From Collinsella tanakaei (GTDB taxonomy: Bacteria; Actinomycetota; Coriobacteriia; Coriobacteriales; Coriobacteriaceae), in the NCBI RefSeq assembly GCF_016900375.1, contig NZ_JACJKB010000011.1, positions 1 to 64,000 of the forward strand: 64,000 nucleotides of DNA, in the 5' to 3' direction. The position numbers and the translations under genes were made by a program. Shown here one piece after another: positions 1 to 2,987 of this stretch (within the stretch, counting starts at the first letter, position 1; the number at the start of each line of letters is the position of its first letter). A model generated the notes under the pieces. That model had not been told where the DNA came from. It ran no database searches and was given only the letters and a program-made list of their open reading frames with translations.

Positions 1-2621
1 TTCTCCCACGCGTCGGCGAAGGCGACCTCGACGGTGACGGCGGAGCCGGGCATCTCGAAGGTCCAGGTGCCGTCCTTCTCGCCGGCCTCGACCTCGACCT
101 CCTTGCCGTCGGCGTCCTTGACGGCGACGCCGGCGACCTTCATGCCCTCGTCGGGCGTCGCGGTGATGGTGACCGTGTCGCCCTTCTTCGCGGAGGTCGG
201 GGCGACCTTCACCGTGCCGCCCTCGGCGTCGGCGACGCTGACCTTGTACTTGGATACGGTCGAGGAGCCACCGCCGGGGTTAACCGGAGTGGAGGGCTTG
301 TCGGAAGAGACGGCGCCGTCCTTCAAATAGACCTGAACACCCTTGAGCAAGTTCTTGTTGATATAGTCGACGATCTTGTCAGTGGCGGGATCAGCGCCAA
401 GCGCGCTCGCAGCGCTGTTTGCAATACCGTCTAGCGTCGCCCGATCGACCCATACGAGCGGGACGTCTGTGGCCAAAGTGCTCACATTCTGAAGAGCAAG
501 CTCCGGCACCGTGGTCACATCCTTGCCCATGGCGAAATCAATTACCGCATACGGCTTTTTGCTGTCCGACGCTTGAGGGTTAAGCTCGCAGCCACTGATG
601 CTCACCTCGGAGCCGTTAACCAGCACGGAAGTCCAGTAGCCTCCGTCAACGGTTACGTTATCCAGCTTGCCACCAACAGTCTTGTAGAACTGAATACCAT
701 GCTTTGCGCCAACCGCGCCGACGGTGAGTTTAGAGATGCTTACGTTATCGGCCAGAATCTGAAGGAACGCACCAGTGTCAACATCGCCCTGAAGCTTTAT
801 CGCGTACCCGTTGCCATGGATGGTGACCGATCTATCGATTGTCAGCTGACCGTTGAAATTCAAGTTGGCCTTGAGCTCAACCGGCTTGTTTTCCGCAGCG
901 GCAGCGTTAATCGCATCGTCGAAATCCAGATAGCCCGTCTCGCCGACGGTCATGTAGGCCGTACCGTAGCTGCCATCGGCAAACTTGTCGAGCCCGGAAT
1001 TAGCCGGAAGATCGATGGAGGCCCCATCGCCGGCTTTATTCTGGATGACCTTCCAGCCCTTGGGCGTTTTGAACGTCACCCCCTCAGAAACGGTCACCGA
1101 GACCGATTCATCATCTGAAGCTTTCGCGGTGTTCTCAACGCACAATCCGATCTCCGTCGGGCCGGCAAAAGATACGATAGAGCCCTCGGCAAAGGTAAGG
1201 GAAGCGCCAGTAGCAGCACCGTTCACGTTACGGCTATCGACGTTCACGCCATACCAGGAGTTCTCGCCCGTAATCACGTCGAGCGCGCCCGCAATCGTGA
1301 CAGAGGAGCCGCCCACGATGAGAGGGGCTCCAGATTTAGAGGACGTATGGTCGAGCTTGAGGTTCTCCAACGTAACTTTCTTAGAAGCCCAGACGTTGAG
1401 CGCATGGTGGTTGCTGACGCCAGTCTCGATGGTGCCGTTCTTGATGGTCACGCCATCCGCGTCGTCAACACTCACGAGCTGCATGGACTGAGTATCGCCC
1501 TCGGTGAACTCGAAATCTTTGGCCACAGTGATTGCCTTGTTGTTCAGGTCGAGCGTGACGTAATCATTGGTGATAGCAAGGCGCTTGGTCAAGGCAATAT
1601 TGTCCTCAAGGGTGACAATTGCCGGGTTATCCGCGGTCCCATGTGCTGCGTCGAGCGCCTCCTGGAGGTCGAGGTAATGATTGGTCCCGACGCTCGCGAC
1701 AACCTTGCCGTAATCGCCGTTGAGGTCCTGGCCGAGACCGGAGCCCTCAACGTTGACATTAACCCCGGCATCCTCTGCCAGGTCCTCATCCTTCTCGATG
1801 ACCTTGAAGCCGCTGGGGGCGTCGATCTGAACGCCGCTGGGGACCGTCACCGAAACGCTCCCGCCCGCTGCGGTCTGCTCGACGAACACGCCAACGTCCT
1901 TCGCACCAGAGAAACTCACGCTTGAGTTCTGAGCGAAAGTAAGCGAGGCTCCTGCGTCGGCCCCGCTGATGATGCGGCTATCGACGTTGATGCCATACCA
2001 GGAGTTCTCGCCCGTAATCACGTCGAGTGTGCCGGTAATGGTGACAGAGGAGCCACCCACGATGAGAGGGGCTCCAGATTTAGAGGACGTATGGTCGAGC
2101 TTGAGGTTCTCCAACGTAACTTTCTTAGAAGCCCAGACGTTGAGCGCATGGTAGTTGCTGGCTCCAGTCTTGATAGCGCCGTTCTTGACAGTCACGCCCT
2201 CTGCGCTATCGATGCTTACGAGCTGCATGGACTGAGTATTGCCGTCAGTATACGTGAAGTTATCTGCCGCAGTAATTGTGCAGCCGCCCAAGTCGAGCGT
2301 AACGTTATTCTTAGTTATAGCAAGGCGAGCATCCAGCTCAATGTCGTGGATTAGTTTGATCGTGTCGCCTTCAGAGCAATCCTGCAACGCACTATTAAGC
2401 TCTTCGAGACTACCGACCTCGTGAATCTCGCCAACGGTCTCCGTCTCTCCGGTTTCCTCAGCATTATTCTGCTCCGGCATCGCCTGTCCAGCAGGAGCCT
2501 GCTCGACATCCGTCGTCTCGTTTGCCAATGCTACCGCAGGCGCGGCTCCGAACGCCAGCGCCAAACCGAGCCCTGCCGTCGCGGCAAGACGGGCCCCGCC
2601 CTCAAACTTAAACTTATTCAT
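1..2621 (-). CDS. Secreted repeat-rich surface protein (3' end outside window)
   Basis: At least 873 residues; the gene runs off the left edge. ATG at 2621 begins MNKFKFEGGARL, followed by a hydrophobic stretch ending in an ALA site near residue 33, a signal peptide. Residues about 50-570 hold two 248-residue parallel repeats rich in short T/V-L-x-L and N-V-T-L-D-L rungs, the look of a right-handed beta-helix, then a third diverged block. Near the window edge there is a Gly-Gly-Ser linker and a domain with the KYKVSVADAEGGTV start and GDTVTITATPDEG motif of divergent InlB B-repeat (Listeria-Bacteroides) domains. A role as adhesin or surface display protein is inferred. No sortase or anchor signal is visible because the C-terminus is missing. 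The upstream region carries a striking promoter (see 2689-2720). Confidence 0.8.
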   Translation of the reverse strand, partial: MNKFKFEGGARLAATAGLGLALAFGAAPAVALANETTDVEQAPAGQAMPEQNNAEETGETETVGEIHEVGSLEELNSALQDCSEGDTIKLIHDIELDARLAITKNNVTLDLGGCTITAADNFTYTDGNTQSMQLVSIDSAEGVTVKNGAIKTGASNYHALNVWASKKVTLENLKLDHTSSKSGAPLIVGGSSVTITGTLDVITGENSWYGINVDSRIISGADAGASLTFAQNSSVSFSGAKDVGVFVEQTAAGGSVSVTVPSGVQIDAPSGFKVIEKDEDLAEDAGVNVNVEGSGLGQDLNGDYGKVVASVGTNHYLDLQEALDAAHGTADNPAIVTLEDNIALTKRLAITNDYVTLDLNNKAITVAKDFEFTEGDTQSMQLVSVDDADGVTIKNGTIETGVSNHHALNVWASKKVTLENLKLDHTSSKSGAPLIVGGSSVTIAGALDVITGENSWYGVNVDSRNVNGAATGASLTFAEGSIVSFAGPTEIGLCVENTAKASDDESVSVTVSEGVTFKTPKGWKVIQNKAGDGASIDLPANSGLDKFADGSYGTAYMTVGETGYLDFDDAINAAAAENKPVELKANLNFNGQLTIDRSVTIHGNGYAIKLQGDVDTGAFLQILADNVSISKLTVGAVGAKHGIQFYKTVGGKLDNVTVDGGYWTSVLVNGSEVSISGCELNPQASDSKKPYAVIDFAMGKDVTTVPELALQNVSTLATDVPLVWVDRATLDGIANSAASALGADPATDKIVDYINKNLLKGVQVYLKDGAVSSDKPSTPVNPGGGSSTVSKYKVSVADAEGGTVKVAPTSAKKGDTVTITATPDEGMKVAGVAVKDADGKEVEVEAGEKDGTWTFEMPGSAVTVEVAFADAWE
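1312..1408 (-). repeat. Intragenic direct repeat, copy 1 (97 bp identical to 2056-2152)
   Basis: Positions 1312-1408 and 2056-2152 are identical base for base, 744 bp apart, which equals 248 codons. The identity includes silent third positions, whereas the flanking parts of the two protein repeats differ at many sites. This points to recent duplication or gene conversion inside the surface protein gene. Confidence 0.85.
2056..2152 (-). repeat. Intragenic direct repeat, copy 2
   Basis: Second copy of the 97-bp block (see 1312-1408), encoding the segment around HALNVWASKKVTLENLKLDH of repeat one in the surface protein. Confidence 0.85.
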
Positions 2622-2688
2622 AATGTGACCGACCCTTTCGTTCAATTCGCCTCTGTTTCAACTTAAGCGAATAACTCCAGATGGGTTC

Positions 2689-2720
2689 AGTTTAGGAGCT
2701 ATCCCCCCCCCCTGTGTCAA
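2689..2720 (-). promoter_or_regulatory. Promoter of the surface protein with a 10-G tract in the -35/-10 spacer
   Basis: On the minus strand a perfect TTGACA (2720-2715) is followed by CA, ten consecutive G (2712-2703), then TAAACT (2694-2689) as the best -10. The spacer is 20 nt with ten G; seven G would give the optimal 17. The transcript would start near 2682, about 60 nt before the ATG at 2621. Assigned by eye; no transcript data. Confidence 0.55.
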
Positions 2721-2866: not shown

Positions 2867-2987
2867 CCAAAATCAGACCCTCTGAAAGAACGACAGCCGT
2901 CGGCGCTTTAATTCATCCAAGTTTTATAGAAAAAAGTTTCCCAGTGGCATTTCAAGTCGCCACTGGGAAACCTCCGTCTGATTTTGG
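2867..2987. repeat. Inverted-repeat-bounded intergenic segment containing the ligA terminator
   Basis: CCAAAATCAGAC at 2867-2878 is matched by its exact reverse complement at 2976-2987. Between them lies a 13-bp perfect stem (2936-2948 with 2959-2971, loop of 10). On the minus strand the stem is followed by six T, so it is a rho-independent terminator for ligA. The rest of the 2622-3015 gap holds only the surface-protein promoter; no gene was seen. Confidence 0.6.
2936..2971 (-). terminator. Rho-independent terminator downstream of ligA
   Basis: GTTTCCCAGTGGC and its exact complement form a 13-bp stem with a 10-nt loop, followed on the minus strand by TTTTTT. It lies 45 bp past the ligA stop. 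Confidence 0.85.

Follow-up and report, generated by a model that had tools for sequence, protein, structure and literature searches.

The promoters of Neisseria porA (poly-G), opc and fetA carry a homopolymer between their -35 and -10 elements, and slippage in the repeat alters the spacing of the two elements (PMC3899988, PMC2791445). At porA, transcription tracks the number of Gs in this position, one nucleotide being enough to shift its level (PMC3899988). G tracts are also known from actinobacteria. In Bifidobacterium breve, tracts of the G10/G11 type slip measurably and underlie a pilus switch (bbr_0113, bbr_1889); G tracts in promoter spacers are mentioned in that study, without data in its accessible portion (PMC9187656). 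In Gardnerella, G/C tracts of 8 or more lie mostly upstream of genes, several of them for surface proteins, and 9/10 length variants occur between colonies (PMC11287997). Finally, indels in a 7G tract upstream of Mycobacterium tuberculosis espR change expression (PMC11898584).

The locus described here shares features with each of these systems. As in Neisseria porA, opc and fetA, the spacer separating identifiable -35 and -10 elements upstream of a surface protein gene contains a homopolymer. Unlike the Neisseria genes, which encode outer-membrane proteins of a Gram-negative pathogen and for which variation and expression have been demonstrated, it belongs to an actinobacterium, concerns wall-associated proteins of the S-layer homology (SLH) class, and is a candidate identified from sequence. 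It has in common with the B. breve pilus switch an actinobacterial gut commensal, a tract of G10-G11 and a surface structure as target, whereas the pilus tract sits inside a coding sequence and causes frameshifts (PMC9187656). The Gardnerella tracts resemble it in actinobacterial origin, upstream position and surface proteins, and differ in that the available part of their description gives no -35/-10 spacer architecture (PMC11287997). The espR tract is likewise an actinobacterial upstream G homopolymer; in contrast to what is proposed here, it acts post-transcriptionally through the 5′ UTR and not as a promoter spacer (PMC11898584).

The promoter and its surface protein gene

The window, a stretch of 64,000 nt, has base 1 of contig C3 as its first position, and the surface protein gene is cut off there with its frame still open (Table 1). 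The original prediction placed a TTGACA and a TAAACT 20 nt apart with a single run of ten Gs between them. Direct reading of the sequence confirmed this exactly and supplied the orientation, which the prediction did not give: the minus strand reads TTGACA-CAGGGGGGGGGGATAGCTCC-TAAACT from 2720 to 2689. The spacer, exactly 20 nt long, consists of CA, the ten Gs (2712-2703) and ATAGCTCC. The -10 hexamer matches TATAAT at four of six positions and is separated by 67 nt from the ATG (2621). When promoter pairs were scored with weights and spacing penalties of our own rough choice, TTGACA-TAAACT ranked first in the intergenic region, the penalty for a 20-nt spacer included; the second-best pair, ATGCTT-17-TATATT (2776-2748), is weaker and lies further upstream. 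A standard promoter scan called no promoter, because it allows spacers of 16-18 nt only. The assembled 20-nt spacer is far from the optimum. An intragenic frameshift switch was considered and rejected: the tract ends 81 nt 5′ of the ATG, and the open frame starts only downstream of it.

Table 1. Features of the promoter region and of the genes flanking it (window coordinates).
Feature	Position	Strand	Basis
Surface protein gene, incomplete at contig start, 873 codons visible	1..2621	-	open frame, domain matches
Signal peptide MNKFKFEGGARLAATAGLGLALAFGAAPAVALA	2523..2621	-	sequence; family alignment
Shine-Dalgarno-like GAAAGGG	2633..2639	-	sequence
-10 element TAAACT, lying within module CTCCTAARCTG	2689..2694	-	promoter scoring and comparison with genome G146
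20-nt spacer CAGGGGGGGGGGATAGCTCC	2695..2714	-	sequence
Uninterrupted G10 tract in promoter spacer, candidate slippage site	2703..2712	-	sequence
-35 element TTGACA	2715..2720	-	sequence; TTGAC unchanged in all 10 homologous promoters aligned
Intrinsic terminator downstream of ligA, with a long stem rich in GC and a run of T	2926..2979	-	fold -31.3 kcal/mol, z -6.7

The gene upstream is ligA, on the same strand. The strong terminator that follows it implies that the surface protein gene needs a promoter of its own within the 300 nt that bear the tract. The visible protein has a signal peptide, two repeats about 60% alike, beta-helix-like repeats, an InlB B-repeat and a weak pectate-lyase-like adhesive match, which bears out the prediction of a secreted repeat protein as the controlled gene's product. 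Since homologues that extend further towards the C-terminus end in SLH domains, the sequence makes it very probable that the product is a wall-associated surface protein. In the genome_contigs collection, its relatives were limited to two distant C-terminal matches, and a search of plasmids with the ligA fragment gave no close relative. Positions 1-247 of the window and L198:3135-3381 form a 96%-identical module of 247 bp. As the module stops at both contig ends (C3 and C45), the assembly probably broke at, or collapsed, a 3′ repeat common to the C3 gene and its C45 paralogue.

Rarity of the tract and its recurrence upstream of homologous genes

Runs of G/C in the window fall off steeply with length (22434, 6542, 1336, 293, 60 and 4 runs of 1 to 6 nt, respectively), and a single run of 10, the tract in question, is the only one longer than 6 in the 64 kb. 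Its length is beyond chance and within the hypermutable range (8 or more). Dinucleotide shuffles gave a mean of 0.72 G9 matches, 17 of 100 shuffles reaching 2, a weaker test because shuffling does not preserve how scarce long runs really are. Across the genome as a whole (87 contigs, 2.48 Mb) there are eleven runs of at least 8, two of them in TTGAC-spacer position, and nine runs of at least 9, two of them with TTGAC 0-4 nt upstream (p ~3e-4). The pattern TTGACN{0,8}G6 occurs at two places in the 2.48 Mb, the window site and C45:130517, both with G10, and the reversed-pattern control at none; each of the two precedes a paralogous surface gene (2/2).

A search with ten N-terminal sequences (cut-off E below 1e-9) identified twelve members of the signal-peptide family in five genomes, one of which is that of the window. 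TTGAC followed by G9-G11 precedes nine of the twelve, a fraction biased upward because ten members (all except the G209:C34 and G133:C6:296934 genes) served as query and most were first met through TTGAC-poly-G scans. The nine are the C3 and C45 genes of the window's genome, one gene each in G139 and G209 (C23), three tandem genes in G133 and two in G146. Their spacings, measured to the best-scoring hexamer where several -10 candidates occurred, are 20, 15, 18, 18, 16, 17, 16, 16 and 17 nt. The remaining three members have interrupted G-rich spacers: TTGACG-17-TATAAT in the window's genome (C24), TTGACG-17-TAACGT at G133:C6:296934, and, at G209:C34, TTGACC with just a weak TTAGGG at 17 nt. Alignment of ten promoters shows conservation of TTGAC and the G core and of little else. 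The -10 module CTCCTAARCTG is common to the window promoter (20 nt) and three poly-G promoters of G146 (16, 17 and 19 nt).

This is the pattern that an easily changing tract length between two stable elements would be expected to leave. It supports the promoter reading, as homologous promoters keep TTGAC and poly-G while run and spacer lengths differ; the 17-nt spacers of the interrupted-tract homologues support both the assignment of the -35 and -10 elements and the predicted optimum of 17 nt, reached at seven Gs. An orthologous promoter was found in none of 44 congeners, and viral_contigs contained no exact copy of the promoter with a variable tract.

Another genome of the order, G133, has four adjacent surface genes (G133:C6:282500-293500; L089 and L178). 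Three of them are each preceded by a poly-G promoter of their own (G9, G11 and G9), the fourth by a 17-nt spacer in which the G-rich stretch is interrupted; the one gene of the cluster that was scanned ends in SLH repeats.

Distribution across the order

Of 397 genomes belonging to the order, 46 contain TTGACN{0,4}G9 and 11 contain GTCAAN{0,4}G9; the control word GTCAA is the reverse complement of TTGAC and is therefore equally frequent over both strands. When 261 genomes were sampled evenly from the phylum, just five of those outside the order (about 2%) had the TTGAC pattern. Within the genus, TTGAC-G8+ tracts occur in only 6 of 45 genomes, one of which has artefact-like runs. Removal of low-quality sites left 60 distinct sites among the matches listed, a non-random and phylogenetically non-independent sample; the tracts of G033 and those at the ends of some G364 and G381 contigs were handled as possible sequencing artefacts. 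Of these 60 listed sites, 32 show a -10-like hexamer 15-20 nt past the -35 element. Shuffling 1000 times gave 4.8 on average (sd 2.1) and never more than 12, equally wide windows placed further downstream gave 3-7, and none of 9 control sites had such a hexamer. A simple rule based on hydrophobicity classed 30 of 55 downstream reading frames among the matches listed as secreted-like, versus 7 of the 49 genes in the window; the rule overlooks several obvious signal peptides and mistakenly accepts some membrane proteins.

We consider it fairly likely that these sites make up a contingency system widespread in one actinobacterial order, probably Coriobacteriales. In such a system, many species would have one or several poly-G promoters, each switching independently of the others and some arranged in tandem (three in 7 kb in G133). 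It would produce combinatorial surface variation in common gut bacteria, its targets being SLH/beta-helix surface proteins and other exported proteins. While this kind of switch is already known from porA, opc and fetA, it is apparently new to this group, and its order-wide recurrence is the more interesting part. For Collinsella or Coriobacteriia, a search of the open-access literature found no paper on phase variation mediated by repeats; a paper on phase variation in Eggerthella was set aside as a precedent, as it concerns prophage retroelements and not repeats. The sites provide a concrete and easily tested list of loci for an order with no such report in the literature searched.

A probable slippage-prone promoter and other readings of the G tract

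The sequence is best explained, and with good probability, by a slipped-strand phase-variable promoter of the porA/opc/fetA type. RNA polymerase carrying the housekeeping sigma factor would recognise TTGACA and TAAACT, and replication slippage in the G10 tract would add or remove Gs, moving the two elements by one base per step, with a spacer of 17 nt for G7, 18 nt for G8 and 20 nt for the G10 of the assembly. Transcription of the surface gene would thereby be raised or lowered, reversibly, within a clone. By the spacing rule, the promoter should be strongest with G7 or G8, and the G10 allele of the assembly should be weak or silent. Related surface genes across the order are preceded by this arrangement of a G run inside the promoter, so bacteria of this order probably switch surface proteins between on and off as Gs are gained or lost during DNA copying, and the benefit may lie in presenting a varied surface to host or phage. 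If so, a gut-type bacterium, probably a Collinsella, and many of its relatives vary their surface proteins stochastically. This would influence how they adhere, how the immune system recognises them and how sensitive they are to phages, and it would make pictures of their surface drawn from bulk samples or single genomes misleading.

The tract might instead tune expression in a graded fashion, or be nearly neutral while hypermutable, in either case falling short of an on/off device. We regard this as a tentative alternative and as a variant compatible with the phase-variable promoter. The meningococcal precedent points this way, as the level of porA transcription follows G number nucleotide by nucleotide (PMC3899988); yet the range of 15-20 nt seen among the homologues would generally span strong to nearly silent promoters.

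It is rather unlikely that the tract is a constrained element, such as a regulator site or a stiff or G-quadruplex spacer, whose length matters and which does not switch within a clone. In the loci of family f4 (L084, L085, L115 and L117) sequence is indeed conserved on both sides of the tract, as in a regulated promoter, whereas the surface-gene family conserves only TTGAC and the G core, run length and spacer being variable. Interrupted G-rich spacers, 17 nt long in the two cases with a clear -10 element, imply moreover that a promoter of this family can do without an unbroken run of Gs.

That a random or mis-sequenced G run happens to lie beside a TTGAC-like word, with transcription starting elsewhere, is very improbable: artefact-like runs do occur in some draft genomes (G033, ends of G364 contigs) and an alternative -35/-10 pair exists upstream, but the tract is 2.7 kb away from the end of a 94-kb contig, recurs before homologues on contigs of up to 594 kb (G133), and is enriched relative to both the reverse-complement word and shuffles.

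Besides the putative slippage-prone surface gene promoters, the scans met G tracts in other settings. The f4 genes encode Tat-exported molybdopterin oxidoreductases and a lipoprotein, and their promoters share a conserved GTCATACAAAA..TTGACG-G8/9-TTCTATGACA; conservation of the flanks suggests regulated promoters that also contain a G tract. In two genomes, TTGACG-G8 with TATCCT or TATTCT at 17 nt precedes genes for SipW-like signal peptidases (L105, L106). The window's own genome has a G11 tract in ribosome-binding position (GACGAC-G11-TAACAG-ATG; L008, G000:C12:7604-7614), possibly a translational switch, and a G10 just 5′ of TATTCT, downstream of genes for L11- and L1-like ribosomal proteins (L018, G000:C45:46617-46626). 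Lastly, at L033 (G001:C1:608363-608381), TTGACCTTC-G10 lies just before the segment for a Flp-pilin-like N-terminus and the open frame continues through the tract, which could be a frameshift or a promoter switch.
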